64,000 nucleotides of DNA, taken from positions 1-64,000 of the forward strand of contig JAGAJB010000009.1 of assembly GCA_017626295.1 (NCBI GenBank), given 5' to 3'. The stretch is from Clostridia bacterium. GTDB taxonomy: Bacteria > Bacillota > Clostridia > Oscillospirales > Acutalibacteraceae. A program made the translations under genes and the position numbers. The notes below the pieces were generated by a model that did not search any database, was not told where the DNA came from, and worked only from the letters and a program-made list of their open reading frames with translations. Below, one piece after another: positions 17,936 through 26,913 of the stretch. Within the stretch, counting starts at the first letter, position 1; every line of letters starts with the position of its first letter.

Positions 17936-18703
17936 ATGGAAAAAAACAAAGCAATTATTGCCCTTTCGGGAAAGGGTGGCGTAGGTAAAACATCTATTTC
18001 TGCCGCCATTGTAAAACTTCTGGTGGAAAATTTTCCCGATAAAAAAATTCTCGCCATTGATGCTGACCCTGCGGTAGGTCTTTCTACTGCGCTGGGTGTA
18101 GACGTTAAAACAACAATTGACGATATACGAAAAGAAATTGTAGAAACCGTTGAGGACGGTCAGACGAAAGCGGCAATTGAACTTCTGGGAGATGCCAGAT
18201 ACAAGATTTTTGATGCTCTTGTTGAAACGGACGGTTTCGCATTTATTGCCGTAGGCAGACCCGAAAGTGCCGGTTGTTATTGCAAAATAAACTCGTATTT
18301 AAAAGAAGTTATCAGCATTCTTTCACAGGATTTCGATTATGTCGTAATAGACGGCGAAGCGGGTATTGAGCAGATAAACCGCAGAGTTATGGAAAAAGTT
18401 ACACATCTTCTTTTAATAACCGATGCTTCTAAGAAGGGTACACAGGTAATTTCTACTATCAAAGATGTTGCGGATGAACTTGTTATGTATAAAAAAATCG
18501 GTGCGATTATAAACAGATTACCCGATGAAAGTGTACTTTCACACGTAAATACAAACGGTATTCCCGTTTTGTCTTATATCACAAATGACAGTAACCTTGC
18601 AATTTATGACATTGAGGGGGAAAACATTATACATCTTCCTGACAATTCAAACGTTGTTGAGGGTGCAAGAAAAGCGCTTAAAGAAATGGAAATTTTAGGG
18701 TGA
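17936..18703 (+). CDS. CooC-type nickel/metallocluster maturation ATPase
   Basis: 255 aa. A P-loop NTPase of the SIMIBI/MinD class: deviant Walker A SGKGGVGKTS (11-20), a switch/Walker-B-like IDADPA and VIDGEAG. The motif GRPESAGCYCK carries the C-x-C pair (C114, C116) that in CooC binds the metal at the dimer interface. CooC inserts nickel into CO dehydrogenase, and relatives (AcsF) serve acetyl-CoA synthase. No CODH catalytic subunit is present here. Instead the gene opens a tight operon with dehydratase-like proteins and an ACS-like domain protein (gaps 6, -8, 14, 1, -1 and 0 bp). Its client is probably one of these; that is inference. Confidence 0.85.
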   Translation: MEKNKAIIALSGKGGVGKTSISAAIVKLLVENFPDKKILAIDADPAVGLSTALGVDVKTTIDDIRKEIVETVEDGQTKAAIELLGDARYKIFDALVETDGFAFIAVGRPESAGCYCKINSYLKEVISILSQDFDYVVIDGEAGIEQINRRVMEKVTHLLLITDASKKGTQVISTIKDVADELVMYKKIGAIINRLPDESVLSHVNTNGIPVLSYITNDSNLAIYDIEGENIIHLPDNSNVVEGARKALKEMEILG

Positions 18704-18709
18704 TAAGAA

Positions 18710-19915
18710 ATGAAAGATTTAAAACATCTTTACGAGTTTGAAAATTTTCTTCAGGAAGCAAACAACGAACTTGTAAAAAAAGCAAAGGATGAGGGAGGTA
18801 TTGCCCTGGGTTACACTTGTTACCATATTCCCGAAGTTTTGCTTAACTGCGGTAACTGTTTTTCCGTAAGGCTTCGTGCCCCCAGAACAGGCTCAATGGA
18901 TATTGCCACATATTATATGAGCAACTTCCTTTGCGGTTATTCCAAGGCGATATTAGAGCGTGCCATTGAGGGCGGGTATAACTTTTTAAATGCAGTTTTA
19001 GCCTCTGAAACCTGCTCCGAAATGAACAGGTCACTTGAACATTTTGAACTTCTCGATTTAGTTCCCAACGATAAGTTCTTTGTTACATTTTTAGATGCAC
19101 CTTTTAAAATTCAAGAACATACCGTTAAACATTATGTTAATCAGACAAGAATTAAAATTCTTGATATGCTCCGTGACGTGTACGGTGTGGATACTTCCGA
19201 CGAAGCACTTCTCAAAGCGGTTGAGGAACACAACGAAGTTTGCCGTTTAATGACGGAAATCGGCAATTACCGTAAAGAAGAAAACCCCCGTATTACAGGT
19301 TATGAATACCACATTCTTAATCTTGTTACATACTGTTGCCCCAAATCGCTTATTCTTCCGAAACTTCGCGAAACTGCGGAAGAACTTAAAACAAGAGAGC
19401 CTGACGCTAAAAAGAATTACAGAGCGAAAATTGTTGTGGTAGGTTCTGAAATGGACGACCCCGATTTTACTGCTCTTATTGAGGATAGCGGTGCGCTTGT
19501 TGTTGCTGACAGATACTGTTTCGGCTCAATGCCCGGCAGAGAAGAGATAATTATAAACAATGACGAAGATGTTTTAACACAGATTTGCCGTCATTATCTT
19601 AAAACAAGTCAGTGTCCTCGTTTTATGAGCCACGAAAAAGTTCAGGAACGCAGAGATTTTGTTCAGAAACTTGTTAAAGAATACAACGCAGACGGCGTTA
19701 TGTATGAGCAGATAAAATTCTGCGAGTATTGGGGTTACGAAAGAGCCCTTGCGTCATACGTTATGACAAACGATTACGGCATACCTACCGCCGCAGTTGA
19801 CCGTCAGTATACCGCATCTGCATCGGGACAATTAAGAACACGTGTTCAGGCTTTTGTAGAAAGCCTTGAAATTAAGAAGATAGCAAAAGAGAGGGAGGCG
19901 AAGAAAAATGGCTGA
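18710..19915 (+). CDS. 2-hydroxyacyl-CoA dehydratase-type subunit (HgdB/double-cubane family), small
   Basis: 401 aa. Matches the D-component (HgdB/FldC) fold: GYTCYHIPE with C37, then C47/C50, C75, SETCSEM with C102, a Rossmann-like second half (VVVGSEMDDPD), and FCEYWGYE with C338 near the end, where family members read FC followed by acidic/aromatic residues. In the family these Cys hold a [4Fe-4S] or, in double-cubane proteins, an [8Fe-9S] cluster that receives ATP-driven electrons from an activator. It overlaps the next subunit by 8 bp. Extra Cys beyond the usual three keep the double-cubane option open. Substrate unknown. Confidence 0.8.
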   Translation: MKDLKHLYEFENFLQEANNELVKKAKDEGGIALGYTCYHIPEVLLNCGNCFSVRLRAPRTGSMDIATYYMSNFLCGYSKAILERAIEGGYNFLNAVLASETCSEMNRSLEHFELLDLVPNDKFFVTFLDAPFKIQEHTVKHYVNQTRIKILDMLRDVYGVDTSDEALLKAVEEHNEVCRLMTEIGNYRKEENPRITGYEYHILNLVTYCCPKSLILPKLRETAEELKTREPDAKKNYRAKIVVVGSEMDDPDFTALIEDSGALVVADRYCFGSMPGREEIIINNDEDVLTQICRHYLKTSQCPRFMSHEKVQERRDFVQKLVKEYNADGVMYEQIKFCEYWGYERALASYVMTNDYGIPTAAVDRQYTASASGQLRTRVQAFVESLEIKKIAKEREAKKNG

Positions 19916-21437
19916 TATGGGTAAACTTTACAAAGACCGTACCGCAATACTTAAACACAGAGAATGGCGCGGTTTCAAAGACACAATGTATGACTATTAC
20001 AGATGGCTTATTACTTGGAAAGATATGATAAAAATGGTATTGAAAGCCCCTGTTTCCACAGTAAAAGGTCTTTGGAAATATCGTTGGATGGCTTCTTACC
20101 TTTCTGCTCCCTCATTTGTTGACAGGCACGTAATGGGTCTTCGCGGACCTCAACTTCGCATAGCACATCTTCACTATAATATGATAGTGAAACATTGTAC
20201 GGGACTTATACATACATCTTTCGTTGCCGATGAAAAAATAAATCCCAACAACAAACTTTCAAAGAAAATTATACTTACAGACGAAATTATACCTAACGAG
20301 GTATTTCAGGGATTCCCAAATTTAAAGGTAGTTCCTTTGCAGACTATTCCTATTTTCCTCTCTTCAATGGTTGACCAGCAAATTACACCGCCTTATCTTG
20401 AAGTTACGGAAAGTTTCGGTGTTCCTGCGGACGTTTGTCCACTTCCCAGTGCAGAAGCAGGCGTTGCTATTGAGGACGATTACCCCAAAATGGGTTGTTG
20501 TATGATTGCAACCAATATGCCTTGCGACGGTTCGGTTATGAACTCCACTTTCTTAGACAGGCGTTTGCAACTTCCCGTTCACTGTTTCAACGTACCTCTT
20601 CGTTATAACGGCGAAGATGTTCAGGAATATGCCGTGGAAGAAATAAAATCACTTATCGAATTTATCGAAAAACAGACAGGTGAAAAGTTCGACTGGGATG
20701 CTTTCTTCGCCGCTATGAAGAATTTTAACAAGCAGACAGAGTACGAAATTCAGAAATGGGATGTTAATAAAACTCCTTATCCTCAATTGACAGGTGCGGC
20801 TTTCTGGCTTTACAGAATTTATTACTTTAACCTTTCGGGCGGTGTGGATAAACGCTTCTTAAAGGTTGATGAAAAAGTAAATAAAATTATGATGAAAGCC
20901 TACGAGAAGAAAACCCCCGTATCTAAAGAAATGCGTCACCGCACGGTTGTTTGGTCTTGTCCTGCTAACTACTACACAAGTTTTGCCAACTGGCTTGAAA
21001 ACTGCTGGGGTATGAACGTTGTTATGGATATGGAAACAATGATTTCATATCAGAAGTTCAACACAGAAGATAAAGAAGAAGCATTAAAAGACCTTGCAAA
21101 AACATATCAGCGTTCCATTATGCGTAAGCATACAAAGGGCGGTTACCGTAACGTTGTAGACGAACTCTGGAGAATTGTAGAAGAATACAATGCAGATACG
21201 GTTATTATGTATGACCAGATTTCCTGTAAAGGTATGGACGGTCTTACAGGTATATTTGATGACCAGGCAAGAGAGCGCAATGTAAACTTTATCTGGGTAA
21301 AACAGGACCTTATGGACCCGCGCACCATTTCAAGACGCGATATGCGTGAACAGGTTAACAAATATATGCAAACAGTTCTTCAGGAAGAACCCCTTGATGC
21401 GTCACTTCTTGATTTCGACGACGATTTGGCTTGGTAA
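19908..21437 (+). CDS. 2-hydroxyacyl-CoA dehydratase-type subunit, large and divergent
   Basis: 509 aa, about 100 longer than a normal dehydratase subunit. The N-terminal ~110 residues are an extra basic/aromatic region. The core has clustered Cys (VCPLPS, MGCCMIATNMPCDG), a PVHCFNVPLRY strand, WSCPANYY and, near the end, YDQISCKGMDG where homologues place the last cluster Cys. It overlaps the smaller subunit and is followed by the activator ATPase, so the two very likely form a heterodimer. Divergence in the active-site Cys region suggests a reaction other than (R)-2-hydroxyacyl-CoA dehydration. Family call moderate, function unknown. Confidence 0.72.
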   Translation: MADMGKLYKDRTAILKHREWRGFKDTMYDYYRWLITWKDMIKMVLKAPVSTVKGLWKYRWMASYLSAPSFVDRHVMGLRGPQLRIAHLHYNMIVKHCTGLIHTSFVADEKINPNNKLSKKIILTDEIIPNEVFQGFPNLKVVPLQTIPIFLSSMVDQQITPPYLEVTESFGVPADVCPLPSAEAGVAIEDDYPKMGCCMIATNMPCDGSVMNSTFLDRRLQLPVHCFNVPLRYNGEDVQEYAVEEIKSLIEFIEKQTGEKFDWDAFFAAMKNFNKQTEYEIQKWDVNKTPYPQLTGAAFWLYRIYYFNLSGGVDKRFLKVDEKVNKIMMKAYEKKTPVSKEMRHRTVVWSCPANYYTSFANWLENCWGMNVVMDMETMISYQKFNTEDKEEALKDLAKTYQRSIMRKHTKGGYRNVVDELWRIVEEYNADTVIMYDQISCKGMDGLTGIFDDQARERNVNFIWVKQDLMDPRTISRRDMREQVNKYMQTVLQEEPLDASLLDFDDDLAW

Positions 21438-21451
21438 AGGAGATAGATTAT

Positions 21452-22252
21452 ATGAAATATTTCGGTGGATGCGATGTAGGCTCTACATATACAAAATGCG
21501 TTATTCTTGATGAAAACGGCAAAATGGTGGCAAATGTTACCAACAGAAGTAAAATTAACCCTGTTGCAAGTGCGGAAATTGCTCTTAATGATGCAATTGC
21601 ACAGGTAGAAGGATTAAATTCTGCGAAAGAACTTACATACCTTATCGGTACAGGTTACGGCAGAAACAAAGTTCCCTTTGCTGATGAAAATATTTCGGAA
21701 ATCAGTTGTCACGCAATGGGTGTTCACGTAACAAACCCCGAAGTTAAGGCGATTATTGACATCGGCGGACAGGACGTTAAAGGTATTTCCATTGATACAG
21801 ACGGTACTGTCAAGAACTTTGCTATGAATGATAAATGCGCCGCAGGTACAGGCAGATTTTACGAAGCAATGGCAAACGCCTTTGAAATGAGCCTTCCCGA
21901 ATTTTCAAAACTTTCACTTAATGCAAAAAATACAATTCCCATTACTGCACAGTGTACTGTTTTCGCGGAAAGCGAAGTAATTTCACTTGTAGGTGAGGGT
22001 AAACCTATGGATGAAATTGCCGCAGGTATTCAACTTGCAGTTGCAAAGCGTTGCTTTGTTATGGCTAAAAAAGCAGGCGCAACAGACAGCATTACCCTTA
22101 CAGGCGGTTGCGCTAAAAATGACGGACTTAAAAAGGCAATAGAAAAGGTTCTTAAAATCAATGTTGTGGAACTTTCTACTGACCCTCAGCTTATGGGTGC
22201 ATTAGGTGCAGCGGAATATGCACGCCAAAAGGGTCTTGCAAAGGAGAATTGA
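21452..22252 (+). CDS. Acyl-CoA dehydratase activase (HgdC/archerase, BadF/BcrA family)
   Basis: 266 aa from ATG 21452, 9 nt after aaaggag. ASKHA-fold ATPase: phosphate loop GGCDVGSTYTKC, second phosphate region IDIGGQDVK, cluster segments NDKCAAGTGRF (C129) and AQCTVFAESEV (C168). Two Cys from each monomer should hold one [4Fe-4S] between the subunits of a homodimer. The archerase hydrolyses ATP to push low-potential electrons into the dehydratase-type partner, here encoded directly upstream. All signature residues are intact, so the system is probably active. Confidence 0.9.
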   Translation: MKYFGGCDVGSTYTKCVILDENGKMVANVTNRSKINPVASAEIALNDAIAQVEGLNSAKELTYLIGTGYGRNKVPFADENISEISCHAMGVHVTNPEVKAIIDIGGQDVKGISIDTDGTVKNFAMNDKCAAGTGRFYEAMANAFEMSLPEFSKLSLNAKNTIPITAQCTVFAESEVISLVGEGKPMDEIAAGIQLAVAKRCFVMAKKAGATDSITLTGGCAKNDGLKKAIEKVLKINVVELSTDPQLMGALGAAEYARQKGLAKEN

Positions 22253-22253
22253 T

Positions 22254-22409
22254 ATGGATATATTTCTCATAATTTTAGCGGTTGTAGTAGGCTTGTTCGC
22301 AGTAACATTCGCTATCTATTGGTTTAATCTTGATATGAAACTTATCCGTTTCGTTTACGATAAACTTCAGAAGCACTATGACAATATGAAAAGGGATAAG
22401 AAGTTATAA
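22254..22409 (+). CDS. 51-aa single-pass membrane protein in the CooC/dehydratase operon
   Basis: Starts at ATG 22254, 8 nt after aaggag, and its stop overlaps the next start (TAATG). Residues ~3-24 form one transmembrane helix (FLIILAVVVGLFAVTFAIYW); the rest is a short charged tail ending in KRDKKL. With this ribosome binding site and tight spacing it is very likely translated. It could anchor the soluble neighbours to the membrane or act as a small subunit. I know of no family name. Confidence 0.75.
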   Translation: MDIFLIILAVVVGLFAVTFAIYWFNLDMKLIRFVYDKLQKHYDNMKRDKKL

Positions 22410-23110
22410 TGGACTTTTTTAATTCGTTGATAGCAGATACTCTTTCATTAACCGAGGGTCTCAGTAAAAAGAGTTTTGACTATAAAGGGGATATTGCCTG
22501 GTCGGATATTGGGTATAACGAAGTTATATTGCAAAGAGATACTGCCTTTGAACTTGACGGTGTGGGCTTTAACCTTGTAACTTCCGCGCCTGTCAATGAT
22601 GAAATAGTTGTTATAGGCGACGATATTCCCGAAATTAAAGAAAACCTGACTTTTGCGAGGGTTTGCGTTATACAGTTAGAGGACTATGAAGACCAACAAA
22701 AAACATATAACCTTATAAGAAAAGTTGAGTACACAAAGTACCACGTTTTCCCCGACGGTTATATGATAAGAACTTCGTCACGTTCACACAAAGAAGCGGT
22801 GCGCGTTTCTGAAAATGCTGTTAAAAAGGGTATAGATTTCCAAAAAGTCGGCAGTTTATTTATAAATAAGTATAAAGAAAATACTGCGGTAAAAGGCGTA
22901 AAGGTTATATTTATAACCGATAAAAATGCAGATTTCAAAAAACTTGAAGAATTTGCCCGCAAAAACAACGATATAACCGAAACTCTTAACCACGTTATGA
23001 ACAGCGTGAATTTTGACTGCGATACCTGTAAATTAAAACCCATTTGTGATGAAGTTGAGGGAATGAAAGAACTTCATTTCAAAACTTCCGGCAAGAAAGA
23101 GAAAGAATAA
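22409..23110 (+). CDS. Acetyl-CoA synthase (CdhC/AcsB)-like domain protein, lacking most of the A-cluster domain
   Basis: 233 aa. From memory, residues ~60-213 align with the segment of acetyl-CoA synthase beta subunits that ends at the first A-cluster cysteines: EIVVIGDDIPEI, then KVEYTKYHVFPDG, then KGIDFQKVGSLFINKY, KVIFITDKN and a final DCDTCKLKPIC (C204, C207, C213) where true ACS has a C-x2-C-x8-C. The remaining ACS C-terminal region is absent, so nickel A-cluster chemistry as in ACS is doubtful. It overlaps the 51-aa gene by 1 bp and abuts a methyltransferase. Together with CooC it suggests a nickel or iron-sulfur centre. An alignment is needed to fix homology. Confidence 0.65.
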   Translation: MDFFNSLIADTLSLTEGLSKKSFDYKGDIAWSDIGYNEVILQRDTAFELDGVGFNLVTSAPVNDEIVVIGDDIPEIKENLTFARVCVIQLEDYEDQQKTYNLIRKVEYTKYHVFPDGYMIRTSSRSHKEAVRVSENAVKKGIDFQKVGSLFINKYKENTAVKGVKVIFITDKNADFKKLEEFARKNNDITETLNHVMNSVNFDCDTCKLKPICDEVEGMKELHFKTSGKKEKE

Positions 23111-23686
23111 ATGGAAAAGCAAGATATTATTTCTTTTTTTGATAGTAGCGCAGGCAGTTGGGACGAAGAACTTATCCGTAATGATAAAGTTATAGAAAAG
23201 ATTTTAGATAACTGCGGAATAGATAAGGACGTTTGTGTTCTCGATGTTGCCTGCGGAACAGGGGTTTTATTTCCTGATTACATAAAACGCGAAGCAGTTG
23301 TTACAGGTATTGATATTTCGCCCCAAATGGTGAAAATCGCAAAAGAAAAATTCCCCGACGTAAATGTTATATGCGGTGATGTTGAGGAAACAGATTTAAA
23401 CGAAAAATTTGATGCGGTAATGGTGTATAACGCTTTCCCGCATTTTCCCTATCCCGAAAGATTGGTAGAAAAACTTTCAAAATTGTTGCGAAAGGGCGGA
23501 AGACTTTCTGTTGCTCACGGAATGAGCAGAGAAGATTTATTGAAACTTCATAATGAAAGAGCGAGTAAAGTTTCACTCCCGTTACCCGACGAAAAAACTC
23601 TTGCAAAAATTTTCGAGCCGTTTTTCAGCGTTGATATAATGATTTCCGACAGCGAAATGTATCAGGTTTCGGGAGTCAAAAAATAA
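23111..23686 (+). CDS. Class I SAM-dependent methyltransferase
   Basis: 191 aa. Standard Rossmann methyltransferase: SAM-binding VLDVACGTGVLFP, acidic loop TGIDISPQMV, motif ICGDVEETD, and post-core VMVYNAFPHFPYPERLV. It starts at the base after the stop of the ACS-like gene, so translation is coupled. The acceptor is unknown: it could modify a protein of this operon, a cofactor or the product. Last gene of the tight cluster; the next gene is 21 bp away. Confidence 0.83.
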   Translation: MEKQDIISFFDSSAGSWDEELIRNDKVIEKILDNCGIDKDVCVLDVACGTGVLFPDYIKREAVVTGIDISPQMVKIAKEKFPDVNVICGDVEETDLNEKFDAVMVYNAFPHFPYPERLVEKLSKLLRKGGRLSVAHGMSREDLLKLHNERASKVSLPLPDEKTLAKIFEPFFSVDIMISDSEMYQVSGVKK

Positions 23687-25490: not shown

Positions 25491-26913
25491 ATGCAAAAGA
25501 AAATTGAAAAATCATAGCCCTTATTAAAGAAAAAGATATTAAGATGGTGGATTTTAAGATGGTTGACATTAACGGTCAGTATCGCCACGTGACAATTCCT
25601 GCAGAGAATTTCTCCGAAGAAACATTCAAAAGCGGTATCGGTTTTGATGCATCCAACTACGGTTATGCAGTTGTTGAGAAGAGCGATATGGTCTTTATAC
25701 CGGACCCTGACGCAGCCATTATTGATCCCTTCTGCGAAATCCCCACATTATCTATGACGGGTAACGCAATGATCATCGACTCACCTGCCAACAGACCCCT
25801 TGCTCAATATCCCAGAAACATTGTTCTTGCCGCTGAGCAGTATATGAAGGATAGCGGTATTGCAGATACAATGCTCATTCTTCCCGAATTTGAATTCTAT
25901 CTTTTCGACCGGGTGGGTTGGAACGTTTCGCCCGACAATATCAGTGCAGGTGTTGATGCAAAGCAGTCATACTGGAACAGTTCTGTTACAGAAAACGGTG
26001 TCATTGTTCCAAGCAGAAGAATTACCATATAGCAAAGCCCTTTGACCTTACATACGAATGCCGTAGCGAAATGTGTATGCATATGGCAGATGCAGGTATC
26101 GAAATCAACTATCATCACCTCGAGGTTGCTGCATCAGGTCAGTTTGAGATTGAGCCTCAACTTGGTCAGATGTCAAAGATGGCAGATAACATAATGTGGA
26201 TTAAGTACATTATTCGCAATACTGCTCTCAAATACGGTAAAACTGCTACATTTATGCCCAAACCCATCTATGGCGAAGCAGGTAGCGGTATGCACGTTCA
26301 TATGCTTCTTCTTAAAGATGGCGAACCCGTATTCTCCGATGATAACGGATACTCAAATCTTAGCGAAACTGCCCACTACTTTATGGGTGGTCTTCTTAAG
26401 CACATCGGTTCTCTTTGTGCTATTACTAACCCCAGCACCAACTCTTTCAAGCGTCTTATTCCCGGTTTCGAGGCTCCTGTTACAATCGGCTACGCTACAT
26501 CAAACAGAAGTGCGGTTATCCGTATTCCTGCTTATGCAAAGGCTCCTGAGAAACGCCGTTTTGAACTTCGTAACCCCGATGCAATGTGCAACCCCTACTT
26601 CTGTTATGCCGCTATTCTTATGGCAGGTCTTGACGGTATCAAGAATAAAATTGACCCCCATGCAAACGGTTGGGGACCCTACGACTTCAATCTTTTCAAT
26701 CTTCCCGAGGAAGAAAAAGCAAAACTCAAAGGTCTTCCCACTTCTCTTGATGCAGCACTTGATGCATTGGAAGCAGATCACGATTACCTTACAGCAGGCG
26801 GAGTATTCCCCGAAGTTCTTATTAAGAACTTTATCAAAACAAAACGCGCAGAATGCAGCGAAATTTCAAAAATTCCTCACCCTGTTGAGTTTGAAAAATA
26901 TTATAATCTTTAA
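25491..26913 (+). pseudogene. glnA: Type I glutamine synthetase, interrupted by two single-base frameshifts
   Basis: The full GSI sequence is present in pieces. ATG 25491 gives MQKKIEK then a stop; one extra A in the gaaaaatc run (25509-25516) would continue as IIALIKEKDIKMVDFKM. The frame from 25544 then runs to 26032, but near 26010-26013 (gttccaag) one missing C diverts it; with CCC it reads VPKQKNYHIAKPFD into the intact remainder. Catalytic blocks GSGMHVHM, NPSTNSFKRLIPG and SNRSAVIRIP are intact. It would make glutamine from glutamate, ammonia and ATP. Both lesions look like shortened homopolymers, so an intact gene with assembly errors is at least as likely as a true pseudogene. Confidence 0.82.

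Follow-up and report, generated by a model that had tools for sequence, protein, structure and literature searches.

The systems closest to the one described here are ATP-driven iron-sulfur reductases. In the class I benzoyl-CoA reductase (BCR) BzdNOPQ (8S02), an archerase, or ATP-dependent activase, feeds a core of two subunits: BzdN, which ligates an [8Fe-9S] cluster through Cys36, Cys73, Cys100, Cys263, Cys293 and Cys327, and BzdO, which holds a [4Fe-4S] cluster through Cys95, Cys128 and Cys380 (PMC11971306). The double-cubane cluster proteins (DCCP/DCCP-R; 6ENO, 7YYL) also combine an ATP-driven archerase with a double cubane, carried by each monomer of a homodimer, and their biological function is still open (PMC11971306). 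Further points of comparison are AcsB/CdhC, the acetyl-CoA synthase (ACS); CooC, the nickel chaperone of carbon monoxide dehydrogenase (CODH); and the putative isoprene reductase IsrA, where the nickel chaperone HypA/HypB is found beside a reductase (PMC10134865). An operon in a Clostridia bacterium of the family Acutalibacteraceae (GCA_017626295.1, contig JAGAJB010000009.1) resembles each of these systems in part. It lies in a stretch of 64,000 nucleotides (positions 1 to 64,000 of the contig), referred to below as the window, and it probably represents a reductase system not described before; its hosts mostly lack the enzymes that CooC and ACS normally serve.

The operon comprises seven open reading frames on the same strand, from 17936 to 23686, with successive gaps of 6, -8, 14, 1, -1 and 0 bp, exactly as an earlier note on this DNA had claimed:

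17936..18703, + strand: CooC-like ATPase, 255 aa, P-loop CbiA/AAA_31 family, best PDB match CooC1 (3KJE)
18710..19915, + strand: HgdB401, BzdN-like, 401 aa, PF06050 at 310 bits, best PDB match BzdN (8S02)
19908..21437, + strand: Hgd509, BzdO-like, 509 aa, PF06050 at 163 bits
21452..22252, + strand: archerase of the BadF/BcrA type, 266 aa, TIGR00241
22254..22409, + strand: small membrane protein, 51 aa, with a hydrophobic segment
22409..23110, + strand: ACS2, an ACS-like protein with a CdhC domain, 233 aa, PF03598
23111..23686, + strand: class I S-adenosylmethionine-dependent methyltransferase, Methyltransf_11/25, accessory and found in part of the genus only

The operon appears to encode an ATP-driven, very-low-potential Fe-S reductase of the BCR/2-hydroxyacyl-CoA dehydratase (HAD)/DCCP superfamily with a dedicated accessory module, a reading to which we assign a probability of roughly 0.6. 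The earlier note knew of no characterised system with these genes, and the literature searched, mostly papers outside subscription, likewise describes none, so that an earlier notice is possible; a paper on the mlp cluster (PMC10418091) cites DCCP and not the set of six conserved genes discussed below.

The predicted reductase core

By its sequence features, the core belongs to the BCR/HAD/DCCP superfamily, since it combines an HGD-D (PF06050) pair, an archerase, and predicted six-Cys and three-Cys sites as in BzdNO. HgdB401 and Hgd509 score far above the gathering score of 28.4 and are the sole HGD-D pair of the window genome, while the archerase reaches 216 bits with TIGR00241, against a cut-off of 125.4, and its cluster cysteines C129 and C168 are invariant among the orthologues compared, which number 62-66 for the ligand sets of the operon proteins. 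Residues C37, C75, C102, C270, C302 and C338 of HgdB401 align to all six cluster cysteines of BzdN and are 98-100% conserved in 63 orthologues; the predicted cofactor of HgdB401 is an [8Fe-9S] double cubane. In Hgd509, C177, C206 and C440 are 100% conserved in 66 orthologues and align to cysteines of MbdO and to C75, C102 and C338 of HgdB401. Hgd509 has no counterparts of C37, C270 and C302, so it should keep one cluster, predicted to be a catalytic [4Fe-4S] site. Its structure model (predicted local distance difference test, pLDDT, 85.5) matches the folds of DCCP, BzdO and HadB. These elements agree with the proposal of the earlier note that the operon encodes an ATP-driven reductase.

The core nevertheless departs from its described relatives. 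Unlike in BzdO, C206 of Hgd509 is followed by D-G-S, which recalls the CDG motif of DCCP and leaves no His at the position of BzdO His131. Hgd509 furthermore has a helical N-terminal extension of approximately 150 aa, and the operon holds one type of archerase and adds CooC, ACS2 and a membrane peptide. In contrast to the homodimeric DCCP, the pair is heterodimeric, with three of the six cysteines kept in Hgd509, and it is accompanied by the CooC/ACS2 accessory. With regard to equivalog models, no cut-off was reached: the BzdN model gave 99.9 bits (cut-off 453.8), a further BzdN/BzdO or BcrB/C test 21.1 bits (448.6), HadC 89.8 bits (700), and double_cubane (NF040772) 140 and 62 bits (350).

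These scores bear on the proposal that the operon encodes a 2-hydroxyacyl-CoA dehydratase or class I BCR of the ordinary kind, with CooC and ACS2 as incidental neighbours. The shared superfamily and folds would suit such an enzyme, and the ene-reductases of the Old Yellow Enzyme (OYE)/IsrA type that adjoin some loci would fit a pathway of dehydration followed by reduction. However, all the equivalog scores lie far under their cut-offs, the operon lacks a CoA-transferase or CoA-ligase, and the coupling to ACS2 is free of exceptions in the samples described below, hence not incidental. An ordinary enzyme of this kind is therefore very unlikely, in line with the earlier note, which had set aside both amino-acid fermentation and the Wood-Ljungdahl pathway.

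Conservation and co-occurrence of the six-gene unit

The conserved unit is formed by CooC, HgdB401, Hgd509, the archerase, the 51-aa membrane protein and ACS2, and it recurs far beyond chance. The gene set is present in 8 of the 22 genomes of the window's genus, and the six-gene order is kept in the 7 genomes other than that of the window, with one copy interrupted by a contig end. Identity within the genus is 96-98% for the archerase, 87-97% for the pair and 57-80% for ACS2 (window 18710-23110 against L011-L017). When 84,980 species genomes were scanned with the family profile, 393 relatives were confirmed, and loci were counted in the best 80 of these 393; these 80 come from Pseudobutyrivibrio, Butyrivibrio fibrisolvens 16/4, Clostridium algidicarnis, Vallitalea and a large number of Lachnospiraceae and Oscillospiraceae genomes. 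The exact six-gene order was found in 41 of the 80 loci; an additional HgdB-Hgd509 pair precedes the unit in 6, the pair is absent between CooC and the archerase in another 6, and most of the remainder are interrupted by contig ends or clearly rearranged. A plasmid search with ACS2 gave no match.

In a phylum sample of 398 genomes, a stand-alone ACS domain occurs in the window genome and in one other genome (G183) only, the other ACS-domain matches being mostly frames of AcsB length. G183 has the same components in a different order; acyl-CoA dehydrogenases are also present, and there are two archerases. Its relatives contribute five further members. The G183-type clusters (L048 14187-18970, L075 956-4909, L076 110-4639) show a BzdNOPQ-like HgdB-HgdA-archerase-archerase arrangement with ACS2, and with CooC too where the contig extends far enough. 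Upstream lie two genes for acyl-CoA dehydrogenases, together with one or two that encode related helical proteins of 221-594 aa, for which no Pfam family scored above its cut-off. A distant cluster in G497 (L076) forms a long row ending in ACS2-CooC-HgdB-HgdA-archerase, the last four in the order of the window.

Hgd509 and ACS2 are strictly associated. Within the window's genus, both are found in 8 genomes and neither in 14, with no exceptions. In a family sample of 200 genomes, drawn from the family of one Pseudobutyrivibrio and including 17 with a true Hgd509, ACS2 was detected in all 14 of the tested Hgd509 genomes that were not already known from the collection scan, and in none of 30 genomes devoid of a true Hgd509. 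Moreover, 10 of 10 genomes with a CooC-ACS2 locus that is truncated or has no pair of its own carry a pair elsewhere. This strict co-occurrence indicates that the proteins function together, as had been proposed from the gene spacing. The earlier note had also asked whether homologues of the pair are routinely found without CooC and the ACS-like gene: for ACS2, no such case occurs in the sampled genomes, and for CooC the answer extends to the loci read, where it is present at nearly every complete locus.

The smallest conserved pair is CooC-ACS2 (L097, L119, L130). Five Hgd509 paralogues in G526 and four in G528 accompany a single ACS2 in each genome, which suggests that CooC and ACS2 are an accessory module common to several Hgd pairs. 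In these two genomes (L157-L165), four to five HgdB/Hgd509 pairs are found, several of them followed by the small membrane protein, and their number suggests substrate diversification.

CooC and ACS2 in the absence of their usual partners

Like the CODH nickel chaperone, the operon CooC has a P-loop and a CXC metal site: its deviant Walker A motif GKGGVGKT and its CXC (C114, C116) are invariant in 62 orthologues, and the latter aligns to Cys112/Cys114 of CooC1 (3KJE), the best match among solved proteins. This metal site has been described, although not every CooC protein binds nickel tightly (PMC6006190). Unlike the chaperone of CODH, the operon CooC finds neither a CODH nor an ACS client in the window genome, where searches revealed no CODH or hybrid cluster protein (HCP; PF03063) and no AcsB. 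A search there for the corrinoid iron-sulfur protein (CFeSP) gave one weak PF03599 match below the cut-off, in a frame of approximately 790 aa. The carbonyl branch of the Wood-Ljungdahl pathway (CODH, ACS, CFeSP) was thus not found in this genome. More widely, AcsB is absent from 35 of 35 operon genomes and from 13 of 14 more of the family sample, CFeSP from 26 of the 27 searched, of which nearly all bear the operon, and a Prismane/CODH-family protein from 19 of 30, most of them operon-bearing. No CODH-linked CooC to set against the operon CooC in a tree was found in the short flanks examined. With the CODH/ACS clients largely missing, CooC must serve something else in these hosts, most simply the six-gene operon.

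The same searches weigh on a possible C1 chemistry. The earlier note had suggested a small or C1 substrate, and the C1/CO2 part of that suggestion found no support: a C1 or CO2 substrate is disfavoured because AcsB and CFeSP are absent from nearly all the genomes searched and CODH/HCP from that of the window, and a C1/Wood-Ljungdahl role is likewise disfavoured by the ACS, CODH and CFeSP searches. A related proposal is that the operon forms acetyl-CoA or fixes CO2 in place of CODH/ACS. Ca. Galacturonibacter soehngenii, a member of the Lachnospiraceae, shows CODH activity, carboxyl labelling and acetogenesis without CODH/ACS genes (PMC7000372), which such a substitute would be needed to explain. 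Lachnospiraceae devoid of ACS do carry CooC together with an ACS fragment and an ATP-driven reductase. Nonetheless, the missing corrinoid protein and the several paralogous pairs per genome disfavour a CO2-fixing role, and folate or formate genes are absent among the recurrent neighbours examined. Hosts such as Pseudobutyrivibrio are not known to be acetogens. Of the explanations considered here, this is the least likely.

With regard to ACS2, its fold is that of the middle domain of ACS. The sequence hidden Markov model match covers residues 331-484 of Moorella ACS, and the structure model (pLDDT 89.9) aligns to 1OAO 316-495 with a Z of 17.3 and a root-mean-square deviation of 2.3 A. ACS2 hence corresponds to the domain that docks CoA and the corrinoid protein, followed by a short tail, and it differs from AcsB/CdhC in lacking the CODH-binding N-terminal domain and the A-cluster C-terminal domain. 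The ACS middle domain interacts with CoA and, in a model, contacts the corrinoid protein (PMC12289521); by analogy, ACS2 may dock CoA or acyl-CoA. The tail reads C204-x2-C207-x5-C213-x9-H223, and its cysteines are invariant in 59 sequences. A profile-profile alignment with AcsB (98.3%, E 1.2e-13) reaches beyond the middle domain and places C204-x2-C207 on F-x-C-x2-C of AcsB, whose two cysteines open the A-cluster motif.

This alignment, the invariance of the Cys3His set and the conservation of CooC-ACS2 as the smallest pair would be compatible with ACS2 being a miniature ACS-like Ni-Fe-S catalyst, in which CooC loads nickel on the Cys3His tail, the pair gives super-reduced electrons and ACS2 handles an alkyl, acyl or CoA group. 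On the other hand, the remainder of the A-cluster domain is absent, the tail match amounts to two cysteines outside the aligned core, the faster evolution of ACS2 relative to the pair is unlike that of a catalytic subunit, and there is a single ACS2 for several Hgd pairs. A catalytic ACS2 is therefore unlikely. Slightly less doubtful, yet still tentative, is a nickel-dependent BCR relative in which a CooC-loaded ACS2, made of the middle domain and a relic of the A-cluster loop, and the ATP-driven double-cubane reductase form one enzyme.

Proposed electron flow, neighbouring genes and significance

In the preferred reading, that of an ATP-driven reductase with an accessory module, a ferredoxin-type donor would reduce the archerase cluster (C129/C168), and ATP hydrolysis would drive an electron into the double cubane of HgdB401. 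The latter would store electrons and pass them to the three-Cys [4Fe-4S] site of Hgd509, where an organic substrate would be reduced. The 51-aa protein probably anchors the HgdB401-Hgd509 pair to the membrane. CooC most likely hands a metal, nickel by analogy, to the Cys3His tail of ACS2, or through ACS2 to the pair, and the fold of ACS2 may provide a docking site for CoA or acyl-CoA.

Several points weigh against this reading. The operon members are known here from genes, alignments and structure models, and nickel is suggested by the homology of CooC only. The lack of a CoA-transferase or CoA-ligase gene leaves a CoA-ester substrate unproven. Some loci hold CooC, the archerase and ACS2 without the pair, so the archerase could also be part of the accessory module. 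The ACS2 tail is modelled at low confidence (pLDDT 48-79), and its alignment to the A-cluster motif is thus a lead only. Finally, the flavoenzyme neighbours are dispensable, given that the window's genus has no full IsrA.

The 51-aa protein has one hydrophobic segment, starting from residue 3, with a peak mean hydropathy of 3.1 over 19 aa, and Y22, N25, D27, K29 and D43 are conserved in 68 orthologues. It is also encoded directly after many dispersed stand-alone HgdB/Hgd509 pairs. The methyltransferase, counted in the earlier note as a core member, is a local addition outside the conserved unit: it lies next to ACS2 in the same direction in 3 of 7 relatives of the genus, on the opposite strand in 1, and is non-adjacent in the rest.

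Recurrent neighbours of the operon or of dispersed pairs include an IsrA-like flavin adenine dinucleotide (FAD)/Fe-S oxidoreductase (17 loci), HypA (16) and OYE-type enoate reductases (13). These neighbours hint at the reduction of unsaturated organic compounds, although they are not required. An IsrA-like gene and HypA often adjoin the operon in Pseudobutyrivibrio and others, and in one locus (L172 7177-15998) two IsrA-like genes, HypA, HgdB, Hgd509 and the small protein form a single same-strand row. The operon reductase nonetheless belongs to a different enzyme family from IsrA, and neither the window's genus nor four other operon genomes have a full IsrA, which rules it out there as an obligatory partner. 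The matches in the genus are partial (34-38%), mostly in a frame of approximately 780 aa, and occur in genomes with or without the operon. In another locus (L167 11684-15423), a stand-alone HgdB/Hgd509 pair is followed downstream by genes that by eye resemble nitrogenase reductase and nitrogenase subunits and that come after an S-adenosylmethionine synthetase.

Promoter-like matches did not exceed those in shuffled sequence; terminator-like matches did, and marked no clear boundary. Elsewhere in the window, at 25544-26913, a glutamine synthetase gene is split by a frameshift near 26031 into two reading frames, either as a pseudogene or through an assembly error.

Several hundred species genomes share this strictly conserved set of genes, among them the cultured Pseudobutyrivibrio, Butyrivibrio fibrisolvens 16/4 and Clostridium algidicarnis. 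Such a set points to an ATP-dependent reductase of gut and rumen bacteria that has so far gone undescribed. The operon likely provides a role for CooC and a free-standing ACS domain outside CO metabolism. If the nickel-dependent variant were true, the system would be a class of Ni-Fe-S reductases uniting nitrogenase-like electron pumping with ACS-type chemistry. The double-cubane family appears here to branch into systems of multiple paralogues with their own accessory module, and the operon offers a testable entry to the function of double-cubane proteins.

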